IMG/VR virus record: IMGVR_UViG_3300042304_001125
Location: 1 to 64,000 of that record
DNA length: 64,000 bases
Direction: 5' to 3' (one strand)
From: a virus
Both the position numbers and the translations under genes were made by a program. The notes beneath the pieces were generated by a model. That model worked only from the letters and a program-made list of their open reading frames with translations, did no database searches and was not told where the DNA came from. Positions within the stretch are counted from its first letter, which is position 1. The number at the start of each line of letters is the position of its first letter. This document shows, one piece after another, positions 16,959-55,088 of this stretch.

Positions 16959-17255
16959 CTATAGGTTCATCGGACGACCCATATCGTCAGTGACTCCTGT
17001 GATTTTCGTAACAGCTCTTACTGTTCTGTTTTTGAATTTGATTGTTACTGGTAGGGGGCTATTTTTTATGTACAGGTCAAACTTCTCGGCGCTAAGTTTA
17101 GTATAGGACTTTATTTTACCGTCTTCATCAAGTACCTCTACTTCGTAGATAATTTCTTCCTCACCGGTCGATTTAATATCATATTCTAATAATTCCTTAG
17201 AATTATCAGTAAGCTTATTCTCTACTAAGAATTTTTTTAAATCAAAGTTTTCCAT
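16959..17255 (-). CDS. Unknown head-cluster protein
   Basis: The product has 98 residues. The start MENFDLKKFLVE-N is similar to the short tags ending in (L/I)xE found on other proteins of this window. The rest is charged with a beta-rich middle (EEIIYEVEVLDEDGKIKSY, VTIKFKNRTVRAVTKITGV). It is located between the protease and the Hc1-like gene, where T4 carries small core proteins (gp67 and gp68 region). Function unknown. Confidence 0.65.
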   Translation of the reverse strand: MENFDLKKFLVENKLTDNSKELLEYDIKSTGEEEIIYEVEVLDEDGKIKSYTKLSAEKFDLYIKNSPLPVTIKFKNRTVRAVTKITGVTDDMGRPMNL

Positions 17256-17278
17256 CTTCTTTTACTTTTTTTTTAGTT

Positions 17279-17857
17279 TTATGCTCTTAAAATGTCTCCG
17301 ATAATGTTATGAAGCTTGCTGTAGCGGTCTACAACTTGCTTTGTTTCATTTAAAGAGACGGGGTTTAGAAATGCTCCGTGTGTAGAAGGATTCGATACGA
17401 AATCCCAGCACACCAATTCAAAATCGTCTTTAACCATTAGGGTGTTCTCACCAATTGGCTGGACTGAACCTGTACCTCTAGAAGAGATACCGATTGTGTG
17501 TCCGCCTTTGATGATTTCTTTTACGATGTTACCGGCCGGGGTGTTGAGTAGCTCAACCTTACCCATTAGATCATCTCCATCCCACCATAAATCCTTCACA
17601 ACGTGTGAAGCATTCTTTAGTGATACAATTGGAGATTCTGGGTGATCTAGTTCACCGTATGCGTTACCTACTTTAACGAAAGCTTCCATGTACTTCTTAA
17701 CCTCTCTATCGAGGATAGCTCTTTCGTAGATTCTTCCGTTTTGGTTCTTCTTTCCGGCTCTCTGCATAACACCTGTCACCTCAAAGATACCGGGTCTTTT
17801 GACGGACTCGGTGATCGTAGGACGGAAGGGGGTATATTCAATTAAGAGATTTGCCAT
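17279..17857 (-). CDS. gp21: Prohead maturation protease gp21
   Basis: The protein has 192 residues (T4 gp21 has 212). The herpesvirus-type serine protease pattern is visible: GELDHPES with His72, GISSRGTGSV with Ser125/Ser126, and DFVSNPSTHGAFL near the C-terminus. The start VTGVMQRAGKKNQNGRIY is typical of this family. It cleaves scaffold, capsid and internal proteins after (L/I)-x-E during prohead maturation. It sits 2 bases from the upstream gene in the operon gp20-x-x-x-gp21. It is the probable processor of the tagged proteins reported in the findings. Confidence 0.95.
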   Translation of the reverse strand: MANLLIEYTPFRPTITESVKRPGIFEVTGVMQRAGKKNQNGRIYERAILDREVKKYMEAFVKVGNAYGELDHPESPIVSLKNASHVVKDLWWDGDDLMGKVELLNTPAGNIVKEIIKGGHTIGISSRGTGSVQPIGENTLMVKDDFELVCWDFVSNPSTHGAFLNPVSLNETKQVVDRYSKLHNIIGDILRA

Positions 17858-17859
17858 GA

Positions 17860-18720
17860 TTATGATTCTAGAGTCTTCTTAATTAAAGCCTTTACTGCTT
17901 CTTTGAGCTGGGCTTCTTTCATTATGTCTTTGATGTCGTAAGTGCCGTCGTCTTTCTTTTTTGGATGGCTTGAAGCGAAATCTCTAGTATTGGTTCTGTT
18001 AGCTTCAAAATCATCTACATTAACGTCTTCTGCTCCTTCTTGGAAGTCAGGCTGACCTGCAATAGCATCCATTCGCTCTTGAGCTTCTTGATCGATGTAG
18101 TAGTTCTCTTTGTAGTCTTTGAAAGCAGCAATAAGCTCGTCTTTAGACATTTTCACATACGTCTCAGGCTCTTGCATTACCATATCTCTGAATGCTTTAC
18201 CTACATTGTTAGGCTCATCTGCTACTGCAGCAGCTACTTCCTTGTCTGAAAGTTCATCTCTTAGTCTTTCACGGTCTCTTAAGAAAGTATTTTGAGTGTC
18301 ACCTTCTTGAAGCTTTGCTTTCTCCATTTTCTCACCCATCTCAGGCATGGTCTGGGCATTCTTATAATGAAGAGGATCTTTTGCTAGATTCTTAGCTGCT
18401 TTCTCTTTTGCTTTTGTGTACTCTTCTTCAGAAGGAGTTCCTTCGATGCCCTTAGCTTCTAGTTCAGCTCTGATGCCGTCATCTAAAAGGTCCGGGGCAA
18501 TTAAATCGATAGGATCTACTTCTGGCTTTTTGTAGGCTGTTACTTCTTCTTTTTTAGCTTCAGCAATCATACCTCTGTTCTTGAGGATGGCTGTCATATC
18601 TTCAAAGCTGTTAAACTTAGAAACAACGTTAGGAAGCTGCATAACTGCATCTCTCCTAAATTGCTCTTTTGAGAAGTTTCCTTCTAGAACAGCATTATAT
18701 TTTTCCTGTAGTGTTCTCAT
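17860..18720 (-). CDS. Unknown charged head-cluster protein
   Basis: The product has 286 residues, highly charged and helical: MRTLQEKYNAVLEGNFS at the start, a Lys/Glu-rich middle, and an amphipathic C-terminal helix (LKEAVKALIKKTLES). No catalytic motif is seen. It overlaps the tagged 72-residue gene by 4 bases and precedes gp21, so an internal or core virion protein is likely. Confidence 0.65.
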   Translation of the reverse strand: MRTLQEKYNAVLEGNFSKEQFRRDAVMQLPNVVSKFNSFEDMTAILKNRGMIAEAKKEEVTAYKKPEVDPIDLIAPDLLDDGIRAELEAKGIEGTPSEEEYTKAKEKAAKNLAKDPLHYKNAQTMPEMGEKMEKAKLQEGDTQNTFLRDRERLRDELSDKEVAAAVADEPNNVGKAFRDMVMQEPETYVKMSKDELIAAFKDYKENYYIDQEAQERMDAIAGQPDFQEGAEDVNVDDFEANRTNTRDFASSHPKKKDDGTYDIKDIMKEAQLKEAVKALIKKTLES

Positions 18721-18935
18721 TTGAAATCAAACATTTTAGTGTGTGAGGGTCTCTTTGGTCTTTCTGCTTTAGTGTAACCAAAGCCCTTCATTGTCTTAAC
18801 GGCTCTGTTGTCTTTTTTTCCTTTTGAAAAAGCGAAAGGAGTTGTGATAGGTGCAATAGCTCCTGTTACGTTCACCTCGTTGAGCTCCTGTTGAATGAGC
18901 TCTCTTAGTACTTCGATGAATTCGCTCTTTTTCAT
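18717..18935 (-). CDS. Tagged small basic protein (putative internal virion protein)
   Basis: The product has 72 residues. The N-terminus MKKSEFIEVLRELIQQELNE-V is an amphipathic helix ending in LNE, a plausible gp21 site. The remaining 50 residues are basic and end RPSHTKMFDFK. The layout resembles T4 internal proteins, whose leader MKTYQEFIAE is removed by gp21. Genes overlap by 4 bases on both sides. Confidence 0.68.
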   Translation of the reverse strand: MKKSEFIEVLRELIQQELNEVNVTGAIAPITTPFAFSKGKKDNRAVKTMKGFGYTKAERPKRPSHTKMFDFK

Positions 18936-19786
18936 ATTGACTTTAACTCATTTACTAATTCGTAGTATTGCAACAAATTAACAATATGATTATCGTCGAT
19001 ACGAGTCTTCTTATCTAAAGGTTTGATAATCTTATGTACTTCGTCAAGCTTGATTTTTACAATCTCGTCGTTTACTTTAGCCTTCAAAGTTTCAACTTCT
19101 TTAGAGATCTTCTCTAATTCTTCGTTGATCATATTTCTTAACTTAACCTGAGATTCAGAAGCTGTGATAAACTCTCTAAGGATTGCTTTCTGCTCAGGTA
19201 GGAAGTTTTCGTACTCGCCGTTAAACTTCTCAAGTAGAATTCTGTAGGTAAGGAGTCTTAAGTCCTTATCGTATTTTGCGTACTCTTCAATTAGTGCATC
19301 TTTTACGTCAACCTCATTTTGCTTCTTAGCAGTCAAGTGCTCTAGAATAGTAACTCTGTTATCGACGATGAACTTAGGATCAGCGAGATCTTCAGAGCTT
19401 TGAGTCTCCATCAAGCAGTACAGAGCAGCTAACGGCTTATAGTCCCGGACCTTCATAGAGAAGAACTCCTCTAGGTCGTAAGACTCTTTAATCTCTTTGA
19501 TAAGATCGTACTTCTGCTTCTTGATAGCAGTTCTATCTAACTTGTTAGAGATCTCGATGATAGTGGAGACGATGGTGTCGGCTTTGGGCTGGGATACTCC
19601 TTTGTTCTTAAGGATGTATTCGTAGAGTTTAAATTCTCTAACTAGCGATGTCTTTCCTGTGTAGAACTTCTTGAGTACCTTCACTGCCGGGGAGTCTTTC
19701 CTCGATAGAGTATCGGCAGCGATCTGCTTTACCAATAGCTCAAAAATAAGGCCAGTGTTTTTATACTTTGAATGCTTAATTTTCAT
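18932..19786 (-). CDS. Unknown helical protein next to the portal
   Basis: The product has 284 residues: MKIKHSKYKNTGLIFELLVKQI, then long Lys/Glu/Leu helices (about 200-260 probably coiled coil), ending YELVNELKSI. It sits directly after the portal gene, where T4 has the core genes 67 and 68. No motif of known function. A late-type box lies 19 bases upstream. Confidence 0.65.
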   Translation of the reverse strand: MKIKHSKYKNTGLIFELLVKQIAADTLSRKDSPAVKVLKKFYTGKTSLVREFKLYEYILKNKGVSQPKADTIVSTIIEISNKLDRTAIKKQKYDLIKEIKESYDLEEFFSMKVRDYKPLAALYCLMETQSSEDLADPKFIVDNRVTILEHLTAKKQNEVDVKDALIEEYAKYDKDLRLLTYRILLEKFNGEYENFLPEQKAILREFITASESQVKLRNMINEELEKISKEVETLKAKVNDEIVKIKLDEVHKIIKPLDKKTRIDDNHIVNLLQYYELVNELKSI

Positions 19787-23978: not shown

Positions 23979-25139
23979 TTAAATAATTACTGTTCCACGT
24001 AGGGAGGTGTGTGATCCTAATCTAGAGCTAGCTGTAGTTCCGTTAGGTTTGCTAGCGAAGATTCTCGGCATGGTTACTCCGTTGACTGTCTGCATATTAT
24101 CTACAAAGTAGTAATCTCCATCTCTTTTTCTAATATGAAGATATAAATCCTGCTTTGCAAACTCTTCTACTGGTTTAATATTACCATTAAAAGTAATTAC
24201 GTTTCCTTCTACCTGAGGCTGTACGTTCATATCTCCGATGTAGTATGCGTCTACTTCTCCTCCTACTGCTGGGGTACCTTTTACGATCTCTAGTACAATA
24301 TCTTCAGGAACTTTTCTGTTAACGTCTTTAAAGTAGCTTGTTTTGTAGAGGTTATATTCGGGAGTCAGTTCGGAATGCTCTTCAAAGATCTTTTTGTAAT
24401 ACTGGTATGCATCTTCGTAGAACTGTTTTATAAACTCTTGTACTTTAGGGGATAGTTTCATAGCTCCCTGTAGGCCTCCTCCTGCAATGGTAGGAGAGGT
24501 AAGCCCTTTAGCTGAGATTAAGAAAGGATCTTCGGTACCTTGAATTACAAGTTTAATATCAGAGTAAGGTTCATGCCTGTATCCCGGCACTGGTGACATT
24601 TTTTCTGCCCGAACTACACCTTCGATAGTGTGTCCGTTTTGATCTTTAATTGTCTTAATTCCTTCAATAGAATTAATAGTGTTGATCACTCCGTGCTCCT
24701 GTCTTTCAGAGGTCTCTTCTTTAGGACCGCCGGCTAGAATTAGAGCAACATCTCCTTTCTCTGTTTTAAATCGGAATAATGGGAATGTTCGGCTACCGTC
24801 TGGTTTAATTTGTTTATTGTTCTGAGATGTGTTTGGAGCGAAATATTCTGGGGCGGTGCCAAATTCTTTTTCGATGATAGCAGTAAAATCCGCAGCAGAT
24901 ATCTTACCTCTGTTACCTATACGGTGGGGGGCAGAATCAGCCATTGCCGAGAAAGTCTCGGGATATTTTTGTAAGAGTACTTGCTTGGCGGCGAGCGTAT
25001 TAGACTTCACAGATGCTTCGGTAAGGTTTATATTGAATAATCCTTCAAAGATACGAAGATCTTCCTTAGAGTCCAACTGTGGGTATCCTTTAGGGCATCT
25101 CCAAGCCCATTCCTCAATAACCTTATCTATTAGATTCAT
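23979..25139 (-). CDS. Putative nuclease-like protein, unknown
   Basis: The protein has 386 residues. The start LIDKVIEEWAWRCPKGYPQLDSKEDLRIFEGL is an N-terminal domain seen in other T4-like phage proteins, and it is followed by NINLTE-A, a possible gp21 site at residue about 41. In the middle, EPYSDIKLVIQGTEDPFLISAKGL has a spacing compatible with a PD-(D/E)XK nuclease core (D...D.FL.SAK), but this is weak. The C-terminus is beta-rich (GDYYFVDNM). The ATG is coupled to the upstream stop. Confidence 0.55.
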   Translation of the reverse strand: MNLIDKVIEEWAWRCPKGYPQLDSKEDLRIFEGLFNINLTEASVKSNTLAAKQVLLQKYPETFSAMADSAPHRIGNRGKISAADFTAIIEKEFGTAPEYFAPNTSQNNKQIKPDGSRTFPLFRFKTEKGDVALILAGGPKEETSERQEHGVINTINSIEGIKTIKDQNGHTIEGVVRAEKMSPVPGYRHEPYSDIKLVIQGTEDPFLISAKGLTSPTIAGGGLQGAMKLSPKVQEFIKQFYEDAYQYYKKIFEEHSELTPEYNLYKTSYFKDVNRKVPEDIVLEIVKGTPAVGGEVDAYYIGDMNVQPQVEGNVITFNGNIKPVEEFAKQDLYLHIRKRDGDYYFVDNMQTVNGVTMPRIFASKPNGTTASSRLGSHTSLRGTVII

Positions 25140-25702
25140 TATAGTCCTGCAAATACGTCTTCTTCTCCTGCGGCTGGTGTAGCGGGTGTTTCTGCTCCTG
25201 CTCCAGCACCGGCTTCAGCTCCTGTTTCTGCTCCGGCTGCGGGTTCAGGTGCTCCGGCTCCGGCGAATACATCGCCTCCGGCTCCTTCTTCTCCTCCTAA
25301 TGCATCCATTCCTGTCTGAATAGGACCGTGTGCGAGCATCATTCCGATCTTGTCTAATGCCTGCTGGAATTCCGGAAGGTTGGCTAGGTAGTAGCGCTTG
25401 CCTTCAATATTGGCTTCAAAGTTTTTACCCATCCACTTTAAGGTCATATCCTGTCCGGATTTAAATTCGACCTTAAACGTAGAAGGTTTGGGTGACATCC
25501 ATCCTACCTTTTCTACAAATTCCATATATTGGGAAGTTAACAAATGTGTTAACGTCTTCTGTAAGGTAGGAAATTTTTGAAGAATATCTAGTGTCGGGTC
25601 CGTTTGATCTCTCTTAGGACCGGTAGCTGGTTCTTCAGCTGCTTCAATTAGCACCTCAAGATAGGCTTCCTCGATGATATGTCTTAGATCCTGTAGCTTC
25701 AT
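25139..25702 (-). CDS. Tagged unknown protein with Ala/Gly/Glu-rich tail
   Basis: The product has 187 residues. An N-terminal amphipathic helix MKLQDLRHIIEE-A contains an IEE site of the gp21 type. A folded core of about 90 residues follows (TFKVEFKSGQDMTLKWMGKNFEANIEG), then a disordered Ala/Gly/Glu/Pro tail ending DVFAGL. It overlaps neighbours by one base on each side. Internal virion protein by inference. Confidence 0.65.
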   Translation of the reverse strand: MKLQDLRHIIEEAYLEVLIEAAEEPATGPKRDQTDPTLDILQKFPTLQKTLTHLLTSQYMEFVEKVGWMSPKPSTFKVEFKSGQDMTLKWMGKNFEANIEGKRYYLANLPEFQQALDKIGMMLAHGPIQTGMDALGGEEGAGGDVFAGAGAPEPAAGAETGAEAGAGAGAETPATPAAGEEDVFAGL

Positions 25703-26586
25703 TACTTCTTATGACTTGCGATTGCTTGACCGATCTTTACTCTTCTGTTTTTGATGTACTTGTCGGTTTTGGTATTCTTCTTACCGTCATTATCAACATC
25801 CTCATCTTCGTGGCCGACTGGGTCTAGTTTTTCTGTAACAGGCATTTCATCGCCTACTACTGCCTGATCCATTGCCGGTTCAGCTAGTTCGAACTCAAGG
25901 TAGTGCTTGGCACTGCTAACCATCGAAGATGCTTTTGTGACTTTAGACTGCCACCAGGCCGGAAAATCTACTTCTCCTTTACCTTCAAACTGATCAACCA
26001 TTTTGTAGAGCTCAAGAGCGTATTTAGCAATCTTGTAAAGCTCTGATTTGATCATATGCGGTTCGTCATCCTGGTGTCCTAGATCTAGGTCTTCCTCCAT
26101 TGGGGTGACTCTTGCACCAGCTTTTTCTAACTCTGCCTTCTGCTTAGGTGTTACCACATCCACTTCTGTTTCTCCAGTACGGCCGGTTATTTTGCTGACT
26201 TGTACTGTATTTTCAGCTAGTACTTCTTTAATAGCTTTTAAAATATCTTCTTTTTTCATCTTTCCTTTGTTTGGTACTACGAAGTATGCATCATCGCCGT
26301 AAGGTGATAACCCTTCTTTAAAAGGTCTTGGGCAAGGAGTTCCTTTAACGTGAGTGTGTCCGCATCTGCCGCAGTATGTAGCTTTTTTCTCGGTTACTTG
26401 CATAGGAGCCATGTCTAGGTCCTTGTGTGCATTATCAAAAATAATCCTTAAAAACTCAATGGTGTCTTTATCTTTCTTAAGATTAAAGTACTTATCTGAA
26501 AAAGCTGCTAGGATGTACTCCTCTACATCTGAATACTCTCTTGCAAGAGCATCCAAATCGCTCATAATACTTTCCTGTAGCTTCAT
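25702..26586 (-). CDS. Tagged unknown protein with zinc ribbon and EF-hand-like loop
   Basis: The product has 294 residues beginning MKLQESIMSDLDAL. A possible zinc-binding site, CGRCGHTHVKGTPCP, is at residues about 72-86. Near the C-terminus DVDNDGKKNTKTDKYIKNRR has the Asp spacing of an EF-hand or dockerin calcium loop. Similar D.DNDG...D.YI..RR tails occur in other T4-like marine phage proteins. The middle part is helical and acidic. It sits in the run of tagged genes. Function unknown. Confidence 0.65.
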   Translation of the reverse strand: MKLQESIMSDLDALAREYSDVEEYILAAFSDKYFNLKKDKDTIEFLRIIFDNAHKDLDMAPMQVTEKKATYCGRCGHTHVKGTPCPRPFKEGLSPYGDDAYFVVPNKGKMKKEDILKAIKEVLAENTVQVSKITGRTGETEVDVVTPKQKAELEKAGARVTPMEEDLDLGHQDDEPHMIKSELYKIAKYALELYKMVDQFEGKGEVDFPAWWQSKVTKASSMVSSAKHYLEFELAEPAMDQAVVGDEMPVTEKLDPVGHEDEDVDNDGKKNTKTDKYIKNRRVKIGQAIASHKK

Positions 26587-26838: not shown

Positions 26839-27051
26839 TCACTGACAGTGATAGTTAAGGTACCTCTGCAGGGCTTTAGCATATGTAGTACCTTTATCTT
26901 TAAGTTTTCCTCTAGCCGCTCTTACTTTAGAGCATGAAAGCTTACCTAACCTCTTTTTGAGAATGCCAGGATTCATAGGATCGTGAATTCCTTCTGTTAG
27001 CACTTCTGCTGCTAGCTCTTGAATCAAGTTCTGGAATTCAGATTTTTTCAT
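26839..27051 (-). CDS. Tagged small basic protein
   Basis: The product has 70 residues. MKKSEFQNLIQELAAEVLTE-G is a tag with an LTE site. The rest is basic (KKRLGKLSCSKVRAARGKLK) and ends YLNYHCQ. It closely parallels the 72-residue tagged protein at 18717-18935 (MKKSEF...L.QEL), so both may be DNA-associated internal proteins. The stop overlaps the promoter region of the next gene. Confidence 0.65.
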   Translation of the reverse strand: MKKSEFQNLIQELAAEVLTEGIHDPMNPGILKKRLGKLSCSKVRAARGKLKDKGTTYAKALQRYLNYHCQ

Positions 27052-27464
27052 TACTCCTTATCTTTGATCGGGCCTCCGATCACCCAGGCGTCACAGGTTC
27101 TAGCAGCTGCACACTTGAACTTTAAAAAGCGGCAGTAACCAAGCTGACCGGCATCAATAACATCGTAAGGATCTTCCGAACCCATGTCTGATCCGATGCC
27201 CTTAGCGATACAGTCTAAAGTCTTAGAAGTAATATCGAAGGCAGCACAAGTACCGCACACCATATTCTTAAGCTCTTCAGCCGTATCGACCTGCCACATA
27301 TCCATTTTCTTCTTCCAGAATTTTTCGTTCTTCTGGGAAGGGTCAGCAGGGCCGTATCCGTATTCGTCAATGGCTTTCTGTCTGTTCTCAAGATTGAGAT
27401 CGATGTTTTGGGTGGCAGGAGGACATTTAACCTCTGCTTCGCTGATGAGTTTACTTAGCTTCAT
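27051..27464 (-). CDS. Tagged Cys-rich protein (metal or Fe-S binding candidate)
   Basis: The product has 137 residues. The tag MKLSKLISE-A precedes KCPPATQNIDLNLENRQKAIDEYGYGP. Cysteines follow in CGTCAAFD, LDCIAKG, LGYCRFLKFKC and RTCDAW, and the C-terminus is VIGGPI. This Cys pattern is conserved in hypothetical proteins of T4-like marine phages. The number and spacing suggest a metal or Fe-S site. Its function is not known; the tag suggests transport inside the capsid. Confidence 0.7.
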   Translation of the reverse strand: MKLSKLISEAEVKCPPATQNIDLNLENRQKAIDEYGYGPADPSQKNEKFWKKKMDMWQVDTAEELKNMVCGTCAAFDITSKTLDCIAKGIGSDMGSEDPYDVIDAGQLGYCRFLKFKCAAARTCDAWVIGGPIKDKE

Positions 27465-27672
27465 CTTGCTTAACGATTTGATCGTAATGATCCATTGTTA
27501 GAGTTTCACCCTCTACAGAGAGTCTGATAGCGTTATCGGCCATAAAGTGTAGATCTACGTCTGCCTGGGCGTCTTCTCTGGCGTACTCTAGAAGTCTGAT
27601 GAATAAGGGAATATCAAAAGTAACTTTATCTTCCGGGTTGTTCTCTTCTAAGAGGAGGTCTATTAGTTTCAT
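27451..27672 (-). CDS. Tagged small acidic protein
   Basis: The product has 73 residues beginning MKLIDLLLEE-N, then VTFDIPLFIRLLEYAREDAQADVDLHFM. It looks like one short helical domain behind the tag. It overlaps the Cys-rich gene by 14 bases and the next gene by 4. Function unknown. Confidence 0.65.
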   Translation of the reverse strand: MKLIDLLLEENNPEDKVTFDIPLFIRLLEYAREDAQADVDLHFMADNAIRLSVEGETLTMDHYDQIVKQDEAK

Positions 27673-27842
27673 TTCTTTTCTTTTTTAAGAATCTCTCTTC
27701 CAGCCTTAACAGCATCTTTGAAAGCTTTACTGTTTGGGTGAGAAGGTTTCTCTCCTCTAGCTTTTTGTGCACGGATATTAGCCCATAGTCCGGGCTTCTC
27801 CTTGATTACCTCTAGGAGTAGCTCTCGCATAAAAGCGTGCAT
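27669..27842 (-). CDS. Tagged small basic protein, 57 residues
   Basis: I chose the ATG at 27842 (MHAFMRELLLEVIKE-K) over a GTG at 27866. The ATG lies 7 bases after the upstream stop and puts the (L/I)xE tag at the very N-terminus. The remainder (NIRAQKARGEKPSHPNSKAFKDAVKAGREI) is basic, with a KARGE..SHP.S.AFK pattern. Internal virion peptide by inference. Confidence 0.6.
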   Translation of the reverse strand: MHAFMRELLLEVIKEKPGLWANIRAQKARGEKPSHPNSKAFKDAVKAGREILKKEKK

Positions 27843-28292: not shown

Positions 28293-28587
28293 GTTTAAAA
28301 ATTTTTATAAGTAAATGACCGGAACCTTTAATGACACGATGCCAATCGTGCCTTTGTATAAATAGCTTATCTCCCGGCCAGAGCAGGATCGGGAGTTGAT
28401 CGTCAAATTGTATGTGCCATTCATAACCGCATTCCAGTATATGAATCTCGCGATCCTCATCGTCTCTATGCCAGTACAGCTCTTGAATATCGATATCGCT
28501 ATCAAACTTTCGAATGACGTAATGTTCGCCATTCTCATCGATTCCGCTTTCTAGATCGATGTACGGACGATCACCAGAATCCTCCAA
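28270..28587 (-). CDS. Cupin-like protein
   Basis: The product has 105 residues, one cupin domain. WHRDDEDREIHILE is followed by a core strand pair, LPILLWPGDKLFIQRHDWHRVIKGSGHLLIKIFK. The motifs WHRDDEDR, PGD and WHR.IKG.G are shared with small cupin proteins of other T4-like marine phages. Conserved His residues could bind a metal, but no substrate is evident. It overlaps the 309-residue gene by 17 bases. Confidence 0.78.
   Translation of the reverse strand: MEDSGDRPYIDLESGIDENGEHYVIRKFDSDIDIQELYWHRDDEDREIHILECGYEWHIQFDDQLPILLWPGDKLFIQRHDWHRVIKGSGHLLIKIFKHGKEKAN
28357..28365 (-). promoter_or_regulatory. Possible late-type box inside the cupin gene
   Basis: CTATTTATA occurs on the coding strand 64 bases before the 99-residue gene start. 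Since it lies in coding sequence it may be chance. Confidence 0.25.
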
Positions 28588-29500
28588 AGCTTGATTTGAG
28601 TCCGATAAGCTTGGCGTACCTTGGTAGTCTGCAAGACCAGTACCCGGGCTTGGTTTTGTCGTTTTTAGTAGCGCAGTTATGACGGCTGGCGAAGTTCCGG
28701 CGTGCTTCAGGATTGTTGATCTTGGCAGTCAGTCCTGTAGTACCTCCGAAGTTGACTTTGATGATCTTTCCTGTCTTAGGGTTACGAGTATAAACGTAGA
28801 ATTTCTTAGGTCCTCCTCTTTTGGGTTTGTTTAGAGCTACTTCTGATCCACGGTACTTAGCCTCTGCTAGAGCCTCGCTTGTGATATCAACTACCCAGAT
28901 GTCCGGGTCTGTATCCTTGCCTGAAGAAATGAGGCTATGTAGGATATCTTCTCCTACTACGATTTCGTATTTTACTTGACCGGCTTCCTGGTACTTAAGC
29001 ACTACTGGCATCTGGATTTGATCGTCGTCTGAAAAAGTAACTGTTTCTTCTCCTGATAGATCAGCCATCACTGGATCGATGTCTGTGTATTTGGCTGTAT
29101 ATCCAAATCCTCCGGCTGCTTTTGAGATGTCGGAAAGCTTCTTCCACTGCTCCTCACCCATCTTCTGGATCTGAGGATTGGTAGAGGCTTGCTGCCAGGT
29201 TGCTTCTGCATCCGGAATTATAAAGCTAATTTCTCCAATCATTGGGAAATCTAAAGGTACTTGCTTGCCTTCAAACTCTGCGTACTCTCCTACCTCGGTT
29301 TCAAATAGAAGTTCCATATCTTCTAGGCAGAGGCACCGTAGTAGACCTTCATTCATAAGAAGACGTGCCTGACGGATGGTAGTAAAGTATTGTTCTGATC
29401 CTGGACGGTAGATGTTCTCGTATAAGGGAGTACCGGTCTGCAAATGGTAGCGAAGACCTTCTGTTAATACCGCAGTAACTTTTGACTCAGTTAAAAGCAT
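28571..29500 (-). CDS. Tagged protein with conserved T4-like C-terminal domain
   Basis: The product has 309 residues. The start MLLTE-SKVTAVLTE-G contains two LTE sites. Residues 90-230 are unrecognised. The C-terminal 80 residues (GGPKKFYVYTRNPKTGKIIKVNFG...RRNFASRHNCATKNDKTKPGYWSCRLPR) match a domain frequent at the end of T4-like marine phage head proteins, marked by KVNFG, FR.RHNC and YWSC. It has its own late-type box 11 bases upstream. Probable internal head protein. Confidence 0.7.
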   Translation of the reverse strand: MLLTESKVTAVLTEGLRYHLQTGTPLYENIYRPGSEQYFTTIRQARLLMNEGLLRCLCLEDMELLFETEVGEYAEFEGKQVPLDFPMIGEISFIIPDAEATWQQASTNPQIQKMGEEQWKKLSDISKAAGGFGYTAKYTDIDPVMADLSGEETVTFSDDDQIQMPVVLKYQEAGQVKYEIVVGEDILHSLISSGKDTDPDIWVVDITSEALAEAKYRGSEVALNKPKRGGPKKFYVYTRNPKTGKIIKVNFGGTTGLTAKINNPEARRNFASRHNCATKNDKTKPGYWSCRLPRYAKLIGLKSSFGGFW

Positions 29501-29520: not shown

Positions 29521-30093
29521 TTACTCCAGGTGCTTCTTAAGGTGCTGTAGGTACTCGTTGACGTTCTTCGTAATTTCGGCTTTCTGCTTGGCAGAATTAT
29601 TATTCCAATCTTCTATCGTTCCGTCTTCGGTTACAAAAGTCATAGATTCGTTAATCTGCTCTTGAACCCATTGCTCAAGTCCTTGTGCCCAGGCCTGCAT
29701 GTTGCCCTGCATCATCTGCTTTTCATACTCCTTGTAGAGGCCGGCTCTACGTAGACCGGCTTCCATATCAACGGTACAGTCAAAGCAGAAGCCATGGATT
29801 TTGTACATCTTCTTGGCTAGGTGATGATTCATTGAACCACCGCAGGAAGGACAAGTTAACGGTATTTGAGTTAGCTTTTTAGCAGCATCTAACTTGGTAA
29901 CATTTTGTTTAAGACCGTTTTTAATGGTCCATGCTCTACCATCTTCTTCCCAGACGTCACCTTCGCTATGCTTTTCTTTCGCTTTCTCGTACCCGGAACC
30001 AACCATGGTACGGGATGTAAAGTTTTTAGAAATAATGTTTCGGGCCCGATTTACAGCCCTTTCATCAAATTCTTTCTTCAGATGGCTTGACAT
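29521..30093 (-). CDS. Zinc-finger protein, unknown
   Basis: The product has 190 residues. CPSCGG at residues about 84-89 and CFDC at about 104-107 form a four-Cys zinc site. Before it, GDVWEEDGRAWTIKNGLKQNVTKLD is a conserved segment of T4-like phage hypotheticals, and KMYKIHGFCFDCTVDMEAGLRRAG follows the same family. No enzymatic motif. It overlaps the HAD phosphatase gene by 29 bases. Confidence 0.68.
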   Translation of the reverse strand: MSSHLKKEFDERAVNRARNIISKNFTSRTMVGSGYEKAKEKHSEGDVWEEDGRAWTIKNGLKQNVTKLDAAKKLTQIPLTCPSCGGSMNHHLAKKMYKIHGFCFDCTVDMEAGLRRAGLYKEYEKQMMQGNMQAWAQGLEQWVQEQINESMTFVTEDGTIEDWNNNSAKQKAEITKNVNEYLQHLKKHLE

Positions 30094-30625
30094 AACCTAA
30101 CTTTTCTAATCTTATAATAACGTTGGATGGGTCTCCGTTTTCTGGATGGTAGATTCCTACACCTCCTGCATCTATCCATCTCTGAATGGTATCTTCCCTA
30201 TCGTCGATTAGGATATCATCGGGTCCTGTACACTCTAGATGCTTTTCTTTAGCCGGACGGAAGATGATCGGAGGAATAGGTTCTAATTCCCTATTTGCCC
30301 ATTCTACCTTACCGTCTCTTGAAGACTGTTCTTCAGAGGGGGCAGTTAAGAGAGTTGGGTTAAAATCTCTAATGTGTTCCCATAGCTGTAGGCCGTGCGG
30401 GGTCCATTCCATTCCTTCCCAAAAGATCTGACCGATAGGTGCAATGACGCTCCAGAAGCCTCCGTCACCTTTTTTCTCCTTGTACTCGTTTGGATGCATA
30501 CCGAAGTAATGGTCAAAGCGGCCTACAAAATCCGTAAGCACGCCATCCATATCACAGAATAGTTTGCCTTTTGGTTTTGGATTTTGCTCCTCTTCAGTAA
30601 GTAGTAAGTCAGCTAACTTGCCCAT
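30065..30625 (-). CDS. Tagged HAD-family phosphatase (nucleotidase-like)
   Basis: The product has 186 residues. After the tag MGKLADLLLTE-E the HAD motif I reads LFCDMDGVLTDF with D25 as nucleophile and D27 as acid/base. Motif III/IV is represented by DDILIDDREDTIQRW. The overall layout resembles 5'(3')-deoxyribonucleotidases and related phage HAD proteins. It would remove phosphate from nucleotides or similar substrates. If the tag is cut by gp21 the enzyme travels inside the capsid. It follows the 951-residue gene by one base. Confidence 0.78.
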   Translation of the reverse strand: MGKLADLLLTEEEQNPKPKGKLFCDMDGVLTDFVGRFDHYFGMHPNEYKEKKGDGGFWSVIAPIGQIFWEGMEWTPHGLQLWEHIRDFNPTLLTAPSEEQSSRDGKVEWANRELEPIPPIIFRPAKEKHLECTGPDDILIDDREDTIQRWIDAGGVGIYHPENGDPSNVIIRLEKLGYVKPSEERI

Positions 30626-30626: not shown

Positions 30627-33482
30627 TTATTTTAAGTTTGGAATACCTCCGATTTGGGGAATTCTGCTCTTCCAAAGATCGTAAATTTTTTGCTTATTTG
30701 CAACTGTTATAATTTCACCCTGTACTAGGTCTTCTAGGTACTGGTCAACGGTTGACTGGAAGTCTTTCTTCTCGTACTTTGACTTTGTATGCAAGCCCTG
30801 GATGTTAGCATCTACTTCTTTAGGAAGCATGTAATACTTGTACCATATCTCCGGGTTCTGACGAATAGCTCTTCTTCTAGCTTCGTCCTTTCTCATCCAC
30901 TTATCCGGGCGAACTTCTACCCCGGATTGGGTTAGGTGTTCGGTTTCGTGACGAATAAGATCGGTTAAGATTGGTTGGATTTGTTGAAGCATATTAGTCC
31001 CGTCAGCCGGATTAAAAGCTAGTATGATATCGATTTCTCCTTCATCGGAACCGGCTTCACCGTCGATGTGGAATTTGCCCGGTGCTACTTGGTCGGTTTG
31101 AGCAAATTTTAAACTTACCCCTACATTTACCGGCTTGCCGTCTTCTGTCTTAGTTCCTTTCTCGCTTTTGCTTGTAAACTCTCCCAGGTATGCTGATTGA
31201 TATTCGTTGTAAAGCATAGCTCCTAAAGGAGACATTCCGTATTTTTCAGCAAACTCTAAATCCTTTTTAGTAGGCTCTCTTTTGGTCTTAACGTTATATC
31301 CTTTTAGCTTTTTACCACTAATTAAGACATTAAGAGCATCGTTAACAGCTCTTCTAACGTCAGCAACGATTGAACGGTATTTGGTACCTTCTTCCAGGCT
31401 ATCTTCCTTCTTAATCGAATCTTCGTACTCTCTCATGAGCATGCTACCAAGGAAATGAGCTTCCTTTTCAATATCATTTAATGTAGAATCTTCCTGGGTG
31501 TTGGTAGTAGTAAAAGCTGGTAGACGATCTTCTAGGTTCTGCATGTGATGAATCATCTCATGGCAGAATGAACGCAGTACATCTTTAGGGTGACGTCCTG
31601 TTACATACAGCACGACTTCTTTCTTAGTAGGATCGTAGTAAGCAGTCCTACCAAAAACGTTAGCAGCGTTTTCTTCATCTTCTCTAGTTTTGATCTCCGG
31701 CAGCGGTAATACCGTCATACCCTTCTTAATCATATGCTCTAGAATACCAGCGATATAAGGTACGTAGTTGATAGCTGCTGCAGTATCCTGGTATTCGTCG
31801 ATAGGTTTCTGCTCGGGAGTGTAGTCAGCTGGTCCCATCGGTAGAGCTTTGTTGTAGTACATCGGGGTAATAACGATCGATTGACCGTTAAAGTCTACGA
31901 TCACATCGTCCGGGGCAAGCTTCTGGAAGTATGCGGTAAGGTTTTGCATTTTCTGACGAATCTCAGAAGGTACTACGGCAATCGGTGCCATGGGAGTTCC
32001 CATGGTTACTTCAGAAGTTTCTTCTTCTTTCTTTTCTGCTTTTTCTTTTGTACCTTCTCCTAGGAAGCTGTTGAATACATCGTCGATGGCTTCTGCCATT
32101 TTGTACTCTGGGGTTGCTTTTAGGATTCCTAGTACTGTTTTTTTATCGTCTGCTGAAAGTTCTTCAGGCATCCATTGACCTGCTTTTAGGTAGTCCATAT
32201 CTGTTCTAATTGTAGTAGCAGATAGCTTTTCTTCGTTGATCGTTGACACAATTTTTAATTTTGCTCTATCGTAGAGATTATCCTTATTGAGCTGTAGAGC
32301 TTTAAACTTAGCTAGATCTGCCGGGTCAGTAGAGGAACCTACTAAGTAGTCTTGTTTTTTGTTAGCTTCGATTTCCTGGTAGATTGAAAGGATAGGGGTG
32401 ACCGGTGCTATTTCAATTTCAGTGGGCACACCTAAATACTTGGCATAGATCCCCCAGATATCTTTTGACTGCTGAGCTGTAATTATTTCTCCTTTTCTGA
32501 TTGTACCACCGATGTAGATCTTAATTGAATCTACGTCCTTGGCTAGCTCTTTAGCGATGTGGAAGTGACCGCGGTGAGGGGGTTTGAATCCACCTCCGTA
32601 AAGTCCGATGGTGCTTTCTTCTCCTTCTGTTAGAGTTTGAGCAACTTGTGACAAAGCCTTCTCTTTATTATCTCCTTTAGGAGTACCTACTTCACCGGAT
32701 TTAACCGATACCATCGAGCGGAAGATTCCTGCTACGCGGTTCTTACTTCTAGGATTGGTAAGCGATCTTGTTATCTGGTCTAAAAGCTTTTCAAAGGGCT
32801 GATTAAGATCAAAATCCTTTAATAGGTTCTGTACGTCAGACCAGTTATTTGATTTCCAGATTTCCTCTCTAGCTACTTCTTTAAAGTTGTCTAGGGTTAC
32901 TTTTCTGAGAGTTAGATTTACGCTAGAAAGGTTAAATTCGTATTCCTGATTTGCTTCTAAGGGGGGTAGATTTTTAATTCCCATACGGGCGAATACTTCG
33001 GCCGGCTTCTGCTCTACTAATGCAGTCTTAACTAGTCCTAAGATTAGACCCTGCACTTCGGCAGGTAGGTCTAAAAACGAGTTCTTAAACTGGTGTTCGG
33101 TTTCAGAAAGAGAAACCATAACATCAACTTGAATAGTTTCGCCCGGTGCTCCTTTGATTGGGTAGAGTACCGAGATAATCTCTCCGGAGTTATAAAATTT
33201 CTTACCTTTATACCGATCGCTTTGGAAGGGCATAATTAGAGAGTCTGGCATCTTAGATACCGTGTCGATGATTGCTTGCTTGGCAAGCTTCTTATCACCG
33301 TATTCAAAGGTACTAATAACGTCTAAGTCTCCGAAGTCGGCTTTAGTGCCAGCTTTAACGCTTCCAGATAGACTTGCAGCTTTGTAACCAGGGATTTTCT
33401 TGAGAACTTTATTCTCAAAATCATTAAACGTATCTTGGACGTCTTGCTTTTTAATTCTATTTCCTCCGGCTACACCGCTCAT
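30627..33482 (-). CDS. Multidomain nucleotidyltransferase / NMNAT-like / zinc-peptidase-like protein
   Basis: The protein has 951 residues. Domain 1 (about 15-130) is a Pol-beta-type nucleotidyltransferase: LSGSVKAGTKADFGDLDVI with the third Asp in IQVDVMVS. Domain 2 (about 290-460) is an NMN-adenylyltransferase-like fold: LYGGGFKPPHRGHFHIAK at 294-311 and SATTIR at 421-426, the GH and ISSTxxR motifs. Domain 3 (about 510-690) has HEMIHH at 641-646 with a downstream EKEAH, a gluzincin-like zinc site. Domain 4 (about 700-951) has a second HETEH at 845-849. LTE-G, LGE-G and LEE-G occur at residues 284-287, 474-477 and 696-699, between the domains. NAD or nucleotide metabolism plus proteolysis is inferred. 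Confidence 0.8.
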   Translation of the reverse strand: MSGVAGGNRIKKQDVQDTFNDFENKVLKKIPGYKAASLSGSVKAGTKADFGDLDVISTFEYGDKKLAKQAIIDTVSKMPDSLIMPFQSDRYKGKKFYNSGEIISVLYPIKGAPGETIQVDVMVSLSETEHQFKNSFLDLPAEVQGLILGLVKTALVEQKPAEVFARMGIKNLPPLEANQEYEFNLSSVNLTLRKVTLDNFKEVAREEIWKSNNWSDVQNLLKDFDLNQPFEKLLDQITRSLTNPRSKNRVAGIFRSMVSVKSGEVGTPKGDNKEKALSQVAQTLTEGEESTIGLYGGGFKPPHRGHFHIAKELAKDVDSIKIYIGGTIRKGEIITAQQSKDIWGIYAKYLGVPTEIEIAPVTPILSIYQEIEANKKQDYLVGSSTDPADLAKFKALQLNKDNLYDRAKLKIVSTINEEKLSATTIRTDMDYLKAGQWMPEELSADDKKTVLGILKATPEYKMAEAIDDVFNSFLGEGTKEKAEKKEEETSEVTMGTPMAPIAVVPSEIRQKMQNLTAYFQKLAPDDVIVDFNGQSIVITPMYYNKALPMGPADYTPEQKPIDEYQDTAAAINYVPYIAGILEHMIKKGMTVLPLPEIKTREDEENAANVFGRTAYYDPTKKEVVLYVTGRHPKDVLRSFCHEMIHHMQNLEDRLPAFTTTNTQEDSTLNDIEKEAHFLGSMLMREYEDSIKKEDSLEEGTKYRSIVADVRRAVNDALNVLISGKKLKGYNVKTKREPTKKDLEFAEKYGMSPLGAMLYNEYQSAYLGEFTSKSEKGTKTEDGKPVNVGVSLKFAQTDQVAPGKFHIDGEAGSDEGEIDIILAFNPADGTNMLQQIQPILTDLIRHETEHLTQSGVEVRPDKWMRKDEARRRAIRQNPEIWYKYYMLPKEVDANIQGLHTKSKYEKKDFQSTVDQYLEDLVQGEIITVANKQKIYDLWKSRIPQIGGIPNLK

Positions 33483-36194: not shown

Positions 36195-36734
36195 TTAATA
36201 GTCGATTAATTTTATCTGACCGTCGGCGGTTGCCATTACGTTGTTATCATCTCCGTACATATCAACATCTTCAGGGTCGACTCCGGCTTGAATCATTTCC
36301 TGTCTTGCACCGATAAAGACCTTCTGTAGGTACGGGGATAGATTTGAAAGTATGCTCTTATCTCCTTCCATAAAGAACTCATCTAATATACGAACGTTCT
36401 TTTTAATTTCCTGAGAGTATTCTTGCGGTAGTGGTTCTAAGTTCTCAACCTGGTACCAGCCTCCTTTTTCCATCTCCACTGCCTTGCCAACGTTTGCCAG
36501 GTATTTAAAGCTCTTACCTTGAGCCTTGAGCATAGCCTGCATTTCGATGTCATCCTGAGTAATTTTTACTAGGTAGCCTTCTTTAGGTTCGTATCCGAAT
36601 TCCGGCACAGGATTGGGTGCATTATAAACAACCCCATGAGATCCTCCCCCTACATAGGTAACTCCGGCTTTCTTAAAAGCATCTTTGATTTTAGAGTAAG
36701 TGCTCTCAGTAAGAAGGGCTTGTATTAGTTTCAT
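36195..36734 (-). CDS. Tagged protein kinase-like protein
   Basis: The product has 179 residues. The tag MKLIQALLTE-S is followed by a kinase-like chain: GGGSHGVVYN (glycine loop), GYLVKIT (Lys candidate), a helical middle, DMYGDDNNVM (catalytic-loop-like, D and N) and IKLIDY* (DFG-like Asp). It ends directly after the DFG-equivalent, so the C-lobe is missing. It may be an unusual short kinase, a pseudokinase, or a phosphotransferase. It overlaps the GIY-YIG gene by 4 bases. Confidence 0.62.
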   Translation of the reverse strand: MKLIQALLTESTYSKIKDAFKKAGVTYVGGGSHGVVYNAPNPVPEFGYEPKEGYLVKITQDDIEMQAMLKAQGKSFKYLANVGKAVEMEKGGWYQVENLEPLPQEYSQEIKKNVRILDEFFMEGDKSILSNLSPYLQKVFIGARQEMIQAGVDPEDVDMYGDDNNVMATADGQIKLIDY

Positions 36735-47856: not shown

Positions 47857-48266
47857 TATTGCTCAAAGTTAATTACAATCTCATCTGTAATGTTGGTTTC
47901 TCTAACAGAGTATTTTAATTCAAAAGAGATTAAGTTTTGGTCCGGTTCTGGTGTAAGTTTTAAAGTCTTAACCTGAACTTGTGGAAAGTATAGTTTTAGT
48001 GAGGTCTCTATACGTTCTGTGATCTCTTCAACGCTATCTTGGGTAATAGCTTCAAATACAAAATTTCGAAGACCTGCTCCAAAATCTACATTGAAAACTC
48101 TTTCATTCTGTCCGGTGAGAAAGAAATTGATAAGATTAGCTTTAGTAGCGTCTTTGGTAGTATACGTAGAATTAAAAACAGCTCTACCTTGGAAAGGTAA
48201 AGCAACCCCTACAGCTTTTCTAGGCTGAAGGTCTAATGGGTTAATTCTCTGTACGTTATACGCCAT
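47856..48266 (-). CDS. gp25: Baseplate wedge protein gp25
   Basis: The protein has 136 residues (T4 gp25 has 132), the GPW/gp25 family. Typical landmarks are LINFFLTGQNERVFNVDFGAGLRNFVFE, followed by ITERIETSLKLYFPQVQVK. Gp25 nucleates sheath polymerisation in the wedge. It shares one base with the gp6 gene and overlaps the tagged 141-residue gene by 11 bases. Confidence 0.94.
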   Translation of the reverse strand: MAYNVQRINPLDLQPRKAVGVALPFQGRAVFNSTYTTKDATKANLINFFLTGQNERVFNVDFGAGLRNFVFEAITQDSVEEITERIETSLKLYFPQVQVKTLKLTPEPDQNLISFELKYSVRETNITDEIVINFEQ

Positions 48267-48681
48267 ATGGATCTCTCTTCTTATTTGCTTGCTTTACAAT
48301 TGCTGCTGCTTTATTAACAAAGCTCAACTGGGATAGATCTAGCCCTACTTTTGGGGCGGCGGCTACAGCTTGAGCTACTGCTCTAGGATCTTCAGAGACT
48401 GGTTTGAAGGCCTGCCTGGGCGTGAATGCGCCTCTATCAAACATTTCAGCCATATTAGCTGTTGCTGTTCCCATGCTGCGGTAATCTTCCGAAGTCATAG
48501 AACGGCTAGTCATATTAAGGGCTTCCATAAGAGGATTTCCTCCTGAGAATTGTAATGGCTTAGGTGCAGGTGCTGTAGCTTCAGTCTGCATAGGAGCGGG
48601 AGCTTTCATTTCAGAAAGTTCTTCTCTGATAGCTTCTCTTACAGCTTCTTTAATTAGACTTTTAAATTCACTAGCTTTCAT
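48256..48681 (-). CDS. Tagged protein in the baseplate cluster, unknown
   Basis: The product has 141 residues. MKASEFKSLIKEAVREAIREELSE-M is an amphipathic helix with IKE and LSE sites. An Ala/Pro-rich linker and NPLMEALNMTSRSM follow, ending VKQANKKRDPYGV. It is unusual to find a tag of the internal-protein type between gp25 and the next baseplate gene. It may be a chaperone, a tail-internal protein, or a head protein encoded out of place. Confidence 0.6.
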   Translation of the reverse strand: MKASEFKSLIKEAVREAIREELSEMKAPAPMQTEATAPAPKPLQFSGGNPLMEALNMTSRSMTSEDYRSMGTATANMAEMFDRGAFTPRQAFKPVSEDPRAVAQAVAAAPKVGLDLSQLSFVNKAAAIVKQANKKRDPYGV

Positions 48682-53033: not shown

Positions 53034-53035
53034 AG

Positions 53036-53218: not shown

Positions 53219-53310
53219 AAGTACTTAATAATTATTAATCTTTATATATAATATACTAATATTATCTATATAATATTTTTACTCTCCCCTTTTTTTCCTC
53301 CCCTTCGTTT

Positions 53311-53341: not shown

Positions 53342-53399
53342 CTGTTTTATAAAAAAGTTTTCACACGCGCCGCGCCGCGCACGAAGCCGCCCCGCAAAT

Positions 53400-54029: not shown

Positions 54030-54032
54030 AAC

Positions 54033-54236
54033 TTACTCTTGATCGTTACCGAAAAATAGATTCCTAGCTAAAATAAAGATAAAGAAGAGTATAGTTATCG
54101 GCCAGATAATAGTCACGATAATACGCTCTAACATAGTGAAACGGTTTTCCTCTTTTCGAGTCTTTGAGACAACAAAATCCCATAGGAAGTTAAAAGTAAC
54201 TCCTACAATGATGTAGTAAATGATCGTACTAAGCAT
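54033..54236 (-). CDS. Small membrane protein (two segments)
   Basis: The product has 67 residues with hydrophobic segments at residues about 3-22 and 38-60, separated by a basic loop (SKTRKEENRFTML). A holin-like role is conceivable but unproven; an early promoter drives it, which argues against a late lysis function. Confidence 0.65.
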   Translation of the reverse strand: MLSTIIYYIIVGVTFNFLWDFVVSKTRKEENRFTMLERIIVTIIWPITILFFIFILARNLFFGNDQE

Positions 54237-54258
54237 AACCTTTATTTTTTATTGATAC

Positions 54259-54290
54259 TTAAAGATAGTAAGTAAATGCTTAAGAAGCAA
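54259..54290 (-). promoter_or_regulatory. Early promoter (TATCTTTAA)
   Basis: TTG at 54290-54288, a 20-base spacer and TATCTTTAA at 54267-54259. The TTG lies in the last codons of the gene upstream. It drives the small membrane protein. Confidence 0.7.
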
Positions 54291-54708
54291 CTTCTACTGC
54301 TAAAATATTATAAATCTTTTGGATTCGTGCACATCTTTCATACTCTTCAATACCCTCATAGTGATCTCTTAACTCCTCCATAGCAAAGGCAATTTCCTGA
54401 GGAGTAAATTTTCTAGCCTCTACTATATGCTCATATCTACTCTCATCGAATCTTTCTAGGTAAGTGAATACTCTATCAAAGTAAGTCTTTCGCACGGTCT
54501 GCTCAATTGATTGATATCTCTCTCCGTATTTTTTACGGTACATCTCATTAATGATAAAGAAGTTCTCAACGCATTTGATCACGGTACCGAAAATGATGTA
54601 CGGATGCTGGGTGTAATCGATCACCGCCTTAGTAAACCCCTCCTTACTAAGGTCATCCTGATCATCGTAATCGAAGATCGATAGAAAGGCAGGTGGTAGA
54701 GCTTTCAC
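54280..54708 (-). CDS. Hypothetical protein
   Basis: The product has 142 residues, helical: MKALPPAFLSIFDYDDQDDLSKEGFT, then YIIFGTVIKCVENFFIINEMYRKKYGERY, ending NILAVEVAS. It overlaps the tagged 127-residue gene by 4 bases. No family recognised. Confidence 0.65.
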   Translation of the reverse strand: MKALPPAFLSIFDYDDQDDLSKEGFTKAVIDYTQHPYIIFGTVIKCVENFFIINEMYRKKYGERYQSIEQTVRKTYFDRVFTYLERFDESRYEHIVEARKFTPQEIAFAMEELRDHYEGIEEYERCARIQKIYNILAVEVAS

Positions 54709-55088
54709 GCTGATAGTTTAGTTGTAACAGCACCGTAGCGGCGAAATACCTCTACCGGGTCCGGGGAGATATTCCAAAGCTTACCTAGTTTCTCTCTTAC
54801 GGCCGGGGTCTGAAGGATTGCTTTGAAGATTTTTTCATCGTAGAAAAATTCTCCCGTAGTCTCGATATACCTAAAGTGTAAATCCGAAGGCTCTTCATAA
54901 GCTATGGTTAAATCCATTTTTAGATCGGGATCGTGGCCTTTTTTGATAACTAGTCTAGGATGAACAAATCTAGCTAAGGCCTCGTACCCTTTCTCAAACT
55001 CCATAGCCGAAGTAGCATCATCAAGGTAAGTTTTACCGTCAAAGATACCGCTTTTAGATTCCGAAAGAAGAGCAGAGATAAGCTTCAT
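54705..55088 (-). CDS. Tagged hypothetical protein with early and late promoters
   Basis: The product has 127 residues. MKLISALLSE-S is the tag with an LSE site. The rest is a folded domain (RFVHPRLVIKKGHDPDLKMDLTIAYEEPSDLHFRYIETTGEF). It is the last tagged gene before the early region and is preceded by both an early promoter and a late-type box. Confidence 0.65.
   Translation of the reverse strand: MKLISALLSESKSGIFDGKTYLDDATSAMEFEKGYEALARFVHPRLVIKKGHDPDLKMDLTIAYEEPSDLHFRYIETTGEFFYDEKIFKAILQTPAVREKLGKLWNISPDPVEVFRRYGAVTTKLSA

Follow-up and report, generated by a model that had tools for sequence, protein, structure and literature searches.

Why should proteins of one phage that are otherwise unrelated share a similar short segment at their start? 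The question is raised by a virus record of 102 kb, in whose first 64 kb (IMGVR_UViG_3300042304_001125, positions 1 to 64,000, hereafter the window) a preliminary description had picked out 11 proteins with an amphipathic N-terminus ending in (L/I)xE and had proposed that it marks them for the phage head. The analysis presented here indicates that these segments are probably leaders of the kind that targets T4 proteins to the capsid, removed by a gp21-family protease and borne by a large, modular cargo; docking, cleavage and packaging in this phage, and injection into the next host, are what we infer. This reading builds on the position of the segments, their core motif and its specificity, the swapping of leaders, the unrelated bodies behind them and the association with gp21.

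Core Motif and Its Specificity

The 11 N-termini were all found on the minus strand, each at the position assigned to it. Ten contain the core phi-x-x-phi-[L/I]-x-E, where phi is a hydrophobic residue, and in the remaining one, that of the protein starting at 30625, the spacing is off by one residue. In the proteins starting at 18935, 27051 and 48681 the core is the first LxE (Glu12), upstream of the end named originally. The motif itself had to be sharpened. The looser [LI]xE shows no more than mild enrichment: it stands among the first 25 residues of 49 of 132 minus-strand open reading frames (ORFs), with 32 expected. The core form is strongly enriched, and the preceding hydrophobic pattern therefore carries the signal.

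Related loci were obtained by a portal-protein search, from which the best 80 of 593 viral loci were taken, and their 896 plus-strand ORFs were reduced by N-terminal similarity to 436 non-redundant ones. The core lies within the first 16 residues of 109 of these 436 ORFs, against a shuffle mean of 8.1 and maximum of 16, a ratio of 13.5. Two shifted-spacing controls gave 8 and 9 matches (ratios of 1.0 and 1.1). Replacing Glu by Lys gave 11 versus 10.1 after shuffling (1.1-fold), by Asp 9 versus 5.0 (1.8-fold), by Gln 7 versus 3.6 and by Ser 15 versus 5.8; dropping the hydrophobic residue at -3 gave 38 versus 17.4, and moving Glu one place earlier or later 26 versus 8.1 and 25 versus 7.1, respectively. 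Thus, the exact core form stands out. The hydrophobic fractions at -6 and -3 are 0.70 and 0.62 in N-terminal matches and 0.33 and 0.31 in protein bodies.

The motif is also concentrated near the N-terminus. The form [LI][LI]xE with its Glu at residues 7-12 occupies 70 of 2616 positions (1.9-3.4% per position), compared with 0.14-0.75% per bin from position 31 on; the xD and xK controls do not exceed 0.46%. Near the ORF start, two forms that overlap with it, [LI]xxE and [LI][LI]E, are raised too because the core itself yields them. In the phage of the window, [LI][LI]xE occurs near the start of 13 of 62 minus-strand ORFs at 7-56 kb (500 shuffles, mean 1.3, maximum 6), boundaries set after the list had been seen, and of 3 of 67 ORFs beyond 56 kb (mean 1.2; Fisher p 0.006 between the two regions).

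Counts per Genome

The closest major capsid protein to that of the window belongs to Flavobacterium phage immuto_2-6A (74% identity), a phage isolated on Flavobacterium sp. LMO8, followed by those of Microcystis phage Mel-JY01 (55%), the metagenomic 484-kb phage LR756508 (53%) and Rhodothermus phage RM378 (37%), and the structural genes of the window and immuto are largely syntenic. Per genome, ORFs were counted that have the core with its Glu at or before residue 16, with the shuffle mean and maximum as control. The whole contig from which the window derives has 17 in 139 ORFs (mean 2.6, maximum 9), gp21, gp23 and a likely false match at 25139 included, and its E-to-D, E-to-K and shifted controls gave 0, 4 and 3. 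The corresponding counts are 14 of 223 in immuto (3.7, 10), 15 of 265 in T4 (4.7, 12), 14 of 243 in G007 (3.9, 11), 19 of 236 in G022 (4.3, 10) and 22 of 244 in G028 (4.1, 11), a genome of roughly 180 kb with the highest count, in which seven adjoining ORFs at 165.6-169.1 kb all start with MIKL. The three altered-motif controls stayed between 0 and 8 per genome. Under a wider motif, applied to LR756508 and Mel-JY01 with V allowed at -2 and Glu at or before residue 20, LR756508 has 68 of 693 (shuffle mean 21.4, maximum 34; controls 14, 21 and 15). In immuto, [LI][LI]xE occurs in 6 of the 83 ORFs located past 76 kb, a number that the shuffles also reach at most (mean 1.6, maximum 6), and in 5 of the 135 that precede this point (mean 2.3).

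Likeness to the T4 Capsid-Targeting Sequence

The comparison with the T4 leader drawn in the preliminary description is supported: the window segments share both the core and the residue positions of the T4 capsid-targeting sequence (CTS). Among T4 sequences, IPII and IPIII (YQEFIAE), gp24 (INELLRE) and gp23 (FGSFLTE, at Glu65) fit the core, and the cleavage of gp23 and gp24 presumably falls exactly at these places. According to PMC9026906, the first 10 residues of T4 IPIII suffice, with residues 4 and 7 steering targeting and residues 8 and 10 processing, and Asp at residue 10 blocks processing and keeps targeting. The core positions -6, -3, -2 and Glu are these mapped residues 4, 7, 8 and 10. 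The CTS of IPI-III and Alt goes back to Mullaney and Black 1996, cited here by way of PMC9026906 and PMC12373910. The second source adds that T4 Ip1-3 have only the leader in common, each blocking a different GmrSD (type IV) restriction enzyme, and that ip genes of T-even phages were located via the signal sequence.

In T4 (NC_000866), gp2, the DNA end protector (76061-76885, MAIFQIINES), and gp61.1 (18966-19130, MKTFKEFIKED) carry the leader core as well. Alt, which had entered the T4 count list, was rejected, as its match is in a different register and depends on an ATG that precedes the annotated start by one codon.

Leader Types and Their Exchange

At least four leader types occur in immuto and the related loci: A (MENFDLKKFLVEN), B (MKKSELRxIIKEEL), C (MKKQILSEQFRRMQKLAGIITE) and D (MIKLxDILKE and MKLIxxLLxE). 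A DNA pattern for MIKLxDILKE found at least 120 stretches in viral contigs, and one permuted control pattern of like degeneracy found none. Among the matches listed, 124 of 133 lie within four codons of the first ATG of an ORF, and 129 bodies fall into 52 clusters that share no BLAST similarity, as judged by single linkage at a blastp E of at most 1e-3. For leader C, again among the matches listed, 108 of 126 begin in the first 25 residues, and 108 bodies form 61 clusters. In a 257-Gb genome collection the leader D pattern found 11 stretches; in six of them, between 3 and 13 ORFs are homologous to those of the phage loci, and in five none is. Searched among phage records, the leader A and C peptides matched only the four immuto records.

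The same body is found behind different leaders. The body starting KPGLWANI in the protein at 27842 has a D leader in L226 and L267, a B-like one in L046 and L037 and another in L230; that of 27464 stands elsewhere under D-type or A-type leaders (L279, L250, L146); and that of 27051 has a B or D-like leader and is also the C-terminal module of larger tagged proteins (L275, L301, L225, L078). When leaders were typed by regular expression, more than one type was present in 21 of the 66 body clusters with several members, e.g., 2H-like L238 (D) and L203 (C), ADP-ribosyltransferase (ART)-like L227 (D) and L231 (B), and L303 (D) and L069 (C), although the largest clusters may be loose, being built by single linkage, and the typing confuses some B and D cases. 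With at least four leader types, one core and the same bodies, a protein could thus become cargo by gaining a leader. As a side observation, a small C-terminal module, GILKxRLGxLSCSKVR, ends different tagged proteins (window 26839-27051; L225:3422-4453; L078:4005-5087).

The leader can also be conserved more than what follows it, as the preliminary description had asked. For the protein starting at 17255, 6 of 13 listed matches cover only the first 20-24 residues, with 80-90% identity, one of them lying inside a larger protein. Of 33 nucleotidase-like proteins, 17 have the DxDG motif at residues 17-28 and 6, with phT4A and Atu_ph07 among them, at residues 7-8; in another 5 it lies deep within a larger protein, and in the last 5 it could not be placed. 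In leader D (L215-L334), Ile7 is ATA in 75 of 77 cases (0.50 in bodies) and Asp6 is GAC in 46 of 77 (0.60; bodies 0.16), so the leaders may spread as DNA; at Leu4 and Leu8, leaders and bodies differ little in codon use.

Association with the gp21-Family Protease

As had been noted, a gp21 gene lies in the window, together with a gp23 that starts MELNSLLNES. The protease (Peptidase_S77 family; positions 17279-17857, minus strand, like gp23 and each leader-bearing window protein described below) matches PHROG 207, head maturation protease, with E 1.4e-49; its immuto homologue is annotated as prohead core protein serine protease, and it has (L/I)xE at residues 7 and 17, ahead of the catalytic domain. 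The major capsid protein gp23 (13506-15083), the one with 74% identity to immuto, has its N-terminal core (MELNSLLNE/S) at E9.

Among the leader-D matches listed, Peptidase_S77 was found in 24 of 40 records (40 of the 80 listed, out of at least 120), including 11 of 11 of at least 100 kb, and in 12 of 14 further records of the study, the two misses both being shorter than 30 kb. Of the 39 records that an arbitrary pattern matched, 19 were scanned and 2 of these have it, both among the three of at least 100 kb. Below 100 kb, the comparison is 13 of 29 leader-D records (among the matches listed) versus 0 of 16 arbitrary-pattern records (p 0.0014).

The protease gene of LR756508 (L382:16480-18204) contains an in-frame insertion of roughly 300 or more residues with intein-like ends, starting with Cys after HPD and ending with TGN/S, a candidate intein.

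Bodies Behind the Leaders

Twenty leader-bearing proteins, picked by eye, were scanned against Pfam: five scored above a family cut-off, seven only below one and eight not at all. Above cut-off are superoxide dismutase in L026, RNase_T exonuclease in L219, a Zeta_toxin P-loop domain in L218 (whose nucleotidase part is slightly under its cut-off), Thioesterase in L272 and DUF5649 repeats in L240. In L026, a single case, the dismutase domain begins at residue 11, right behind MSDILLEAKG, the same start as against solved dismutases. Matches below cut-off include Acb1 and 2_5_RNA_ligase2 in L238, PBECR3 in L246 and NT5C in L225. In LR756508 (L384-L391), 17 tagged paralogues form one family; RG, RxxSxF and a C-terminal Glu in them resemble ART motifs. 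For the ART-like cargo of L215, the predicted fold was too poor to use (no alignment, pLDDT 37.9), and a scan of ten of the named window proteins (all except 27842) gave no Pfam match at E 0.01. The unrelated tagged bodies accordingly include predicted enzymes.

A link to virions comes from outside this clade, from cyanophage S-SM1, in whose virions proteomics (Sullivan et al., PMC3037559) detected T4-GC190, a putative cytidylyltransferase; the accessible part of that paper does not tie the detection to a targeting leader. In the S-SM1 record, SSM1_190 is labelled GC 190 and starts with MKKFSAFLNEAERSF (MKKFSAFLNEA), the core being at Glu10. Its Pfam domain, CTP_transf_like, recurs in a Mel-JY01 protein that starts MGKLINILLSE and in a Melnitz counterpart that starts MKKFSEIIEA, which is off the strict core. 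All three proteins score above the cut-off for this domain; L372 and a leaderless window protein (30627-33482) score below it. Melnitz protein 12203 has relatives in the Melnitz and HTVC008M records only, and 13272 has relatives common in cyanophages, with nothing on virions from them. One protein apparently joins a leader to a cytidylyltransferase-like and a 5'-nucleotidase-like part in each of L372:17502-18890 and L312:2685-4079. The claim that the phage packages and injects a large internal cargo, enzymes included, is partly supported, by the core, the unrelated bodies, gp21 and S-SM1 T4-GC190; packaging and injection by the window phage itself are putative.

Leader-Bearing Proteins of the Window

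Fractions given here are of distinct homologues with the core in their first 26 residues; the background is 222 of 896 plus-strand ORFs, tagged ones included. The A-type leader MENFDLKKFLVENKLTxNSK belongs to a 98-residue protein (16959-17255; 12 of 12). Others are a 104-residue protein starting MITLEQLLSE/V (9116-9430; 6 of 6), a 137-residue protein with MKLSKLISE/A (27051-27464; 9 of 10), a 72-residue protein with the B-type leader MKKSEFIEVLRELIQQELNE (18717-18935; 31 of 37), which lies between the portal and protease genes, the T4 gp67/gp68 position, and a 70-residue protein with the B-type leader MKKSEFQNLIQELAAEVLTE/G (26839-27051; 9 of 11). The 57-residue protein with N-terminus MHAFMRELLLEVIKE/KPGLWANI (27669-27842, ATG start) has 5 of 9, and the 73-residue protein with MKLIDLLLE(E) (27451-27672), whose body exists leaderless too, 1 of 8.

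Two proteins match the core and have no homologue in the fetched related loci, namely a 127-residue protein (54705-55088; leader MKLISALLSE/S at 55059-55088) and a 179-residue protein (36195-36734; leader MKLIQALLTE/S at 36705-36734). The body of the latter has a glycine-rich stretch, YVGGGSHGVVY, that looks kinase-like by motif alone. It had no Pfam or PHROG match at E 0.01, no match among 50,697 phage records (E 0.01) and no significant PDB match, and its predicted fold was too poor for use (7-row alignment, pLDDT 46.7). The kinase-like family profile gave only weak PDB matches (NleH1, E 0.034; STK4, E ~0.1; also interleukin-2), and for this reason "kinase-like" stays a remark on the motif.

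Four members are weak. The 309-residue protein starting MLLTESKVTAVLTEG (28571-29500; PHROG 7595, unknown function) has LxE at residues 5 and 14 and the core at Glu14 only, not at the MLLTE named originally; 21 of 41 homologues have the core. The 5'(3')-deoxyribonucleotidase-like HAD protein (30065-30625; PHROG 2643, E 2.3e-23) has a degenerate leader, MGKLADLLLTEEE, before its DMDG motif. A 141-residue protein starting MKASEFKSLIKEAVREAIREELSE (48256-48681; 4 of 4) fits the core and adjoins baseplate genes, its immuto homologue sitting before a baseplate assembly gene; as head cargo it is doubtful. Also doubtful is a 187-residue protein starting with the B-type MKLQDLRHIIEEAYLEVLIEAAEE (25139-25702), because its leader segment is internal in larger proteins of relatives: it aligns inside an 841-residue immuto protein and inside L033, L027, L046 and L025, and 14 of 41 homologues have the core, near the 25% background. 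The immuto protein (114006-116531) matches parts of the adjacent window proteins 26586 and 25702 (window 25139-26586), with the B-type segment internal, by either gene fission/fusion or a polyprotein. The match MNLIDKVIEEWAWRC (23979-25139, minus strand) was rejected as a leader, since it is part of a conserved N-terminal domain and conservation continues through an EW...KGYP stretch.

Weighing the Explanations

If the segments are targeting leaders, the hydrophobic face (-6 and -3 before the cleavage-site Glu) would dock the tagged protein to the prohead core as it assembles, the gp21-family protease would cut behind (L/I)xE and the leader would depart; the mature body would remain in the head and enter the next host with the DNA. 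The leaders behave as exchangeable modules, and a protein could turn into cargo by acquiring one.

Several observations weigh against this. Some altered motifs are themselves raised 1.9- to 3.5-fold, if far below 13.5. G034 has 9 of 199 ORFs with the core (shuffle mean 3.1, maximum 9), equal to the shuffle maximum, and Mel-JY01 shows no enrichment under the wider motif (10 of 244; mean 6.2, maximum 14). Partial records counted without shuffles, with V or F at -2, gave 1 of 36 ORFs in the S-SM1 region, 3 of 30 in RM378, 4 of 67 in Melnitz and 4 of 55 in HTVC008M, low counts from which it follows that the core is not crowded in every phage. T4 IPI, gp67, gp22 and Alt (from its own start) do not fit the core, gp21 has it in 24 of 46 distinct homologues, and 15 of 126 listed leader C matches lie at or beyond residue 60. 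Homologues that lack the tag, which the preliminary description had regarded as contrary evidence, do occur. Those of 27672 in L208, L196 and L101 start at the body, and in the 5'-nucleotidase family only 3 of 27 distinct homologues of 30625 have the core, the N-terminal extension being missing in phT4A, Atu_ph07, L329, L303 and L343. The tag is therefore gained and lost; leaderless homologues fit a modular tag, and not every homologue is therefore cargo. Finally, a literature search found no virion proteomics for the clade of the window phage.

An unlikely alternative sees the segments as uncut docking helices for some phage assembly (core, portal or baseplate), LxE being part of the helix and not a protease site. 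B-type leaders do resemble long amphipathic helices, a 48681 homologue sits among baseplate genes, and many leaders hold two or three (L/I)xE. However, changing Glu to Asp or Lys loses most of the enrichment, though a helix would accept either, the site matches T4 gp21 substrates, and the leaders associate with gp21. It is very improbable that the leaders are DNA cassettes, i.e., recombination sites or translation-start regions spread among genes with an inert peptide: the Ile7 and Asp6 codons of leader D are fixed beyond codon usage, but Leu4 and Leu8 are near the bodies, and four leader types of differing sequence have a single amino-acid core. That ordinary amphipathic N-termini were singled out by the reader is scarcely credible; the weakness of bare [LI]xE favors it, whereas the shuffle, spacing, residue, position and permuted-pattern controls refute it for the set, and it is possible for single members such as 25139. 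The charged residues at -1, -4 and -5 of the leaders speak against a putative Sec-type signal peptide.

Comparison with Known Packaging Systems

The capsid-targeting leader principle is known from publications on T4. Like the T4 CTS, the present segments are N-terminal leaders of about 10 residues with the same hydrophobic positions and an LxE end, on unrelated proteins and with a gp21-family protease. The differences are the scale (up to 22 motif-positive ORFs in G028, and 68 of 693 in LR756508 under the wider motif), the several interchangeable leader types in environmental phages, and cargo with enzyme domains (superoxide dismutase, RNase_T exonuclease, nucleotidase, P-loop kinase with nucleotidase, thioesterase). 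In phage P1, the N-terminal 30 residues of DarB suffice to send a protein into the head (PMC9024508); this too is an N-terminal packaging signal, compared here by description only, and a single cargo protein is described. In phiKZ and SPN3US the prohead protease also cuts after Glu and ejection proteins bear propeptides (PMC5694885, PMC9026906), but the motif is S/A-x-E and several propeptides exceed 100 residues; the window leaders have L or I two residues before Glu. The same kinds of predicted injected domains (ART, 2H, PBECR) occur in MuF/portal fusions and polyvalent proteins (PMC5512222, PMC9503650), whose packaging was deduced from fusion to a head protein or from gene neighborhood and not from a short removable leader. 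Neither the cargo scale nor the interchangeable leader types nor the enzyme cargo turned up in the literature searched (leaders and targeting, cyanophage virions, dismutase in virions, immuto), with subscription journals mostly outside reach.

Implications for T4-like Phages

Injected phage proteins act ahead of any phage gene expression, and they are hard to find by homology because the leader may be their only common part. The shared T4-like address label points to a large, changing assortment of enzymes and further cargo that such phages would carry and probably inject. In a broader form, for which the chances seem about even, environmental T4-like phages, some probably on Flavobacteria, would have an open cargo system of ten to several dozen proteins per virion, anti-defense and metabolic enzymes included (Acb1-like 2H, ART-like, superoxide dismutase, nucleotidase, exonuclease), loaded by a few leaders that are interchangeable and removable and pass from gene to gene, in part as DNA cassettes.

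The leader offers a reading of the older result on the putative cytidylyltransferase in S-SM1 virions. Furthermore, with its controls the leader motif makes many environmental phage genes of unknown role testable as predicted virion cargo, suggests where to look for early counter-defense and gives new leaders for loading proteins into phage heads. If the broader form holds, the injected effectors of such phages could be read from sequence alone.

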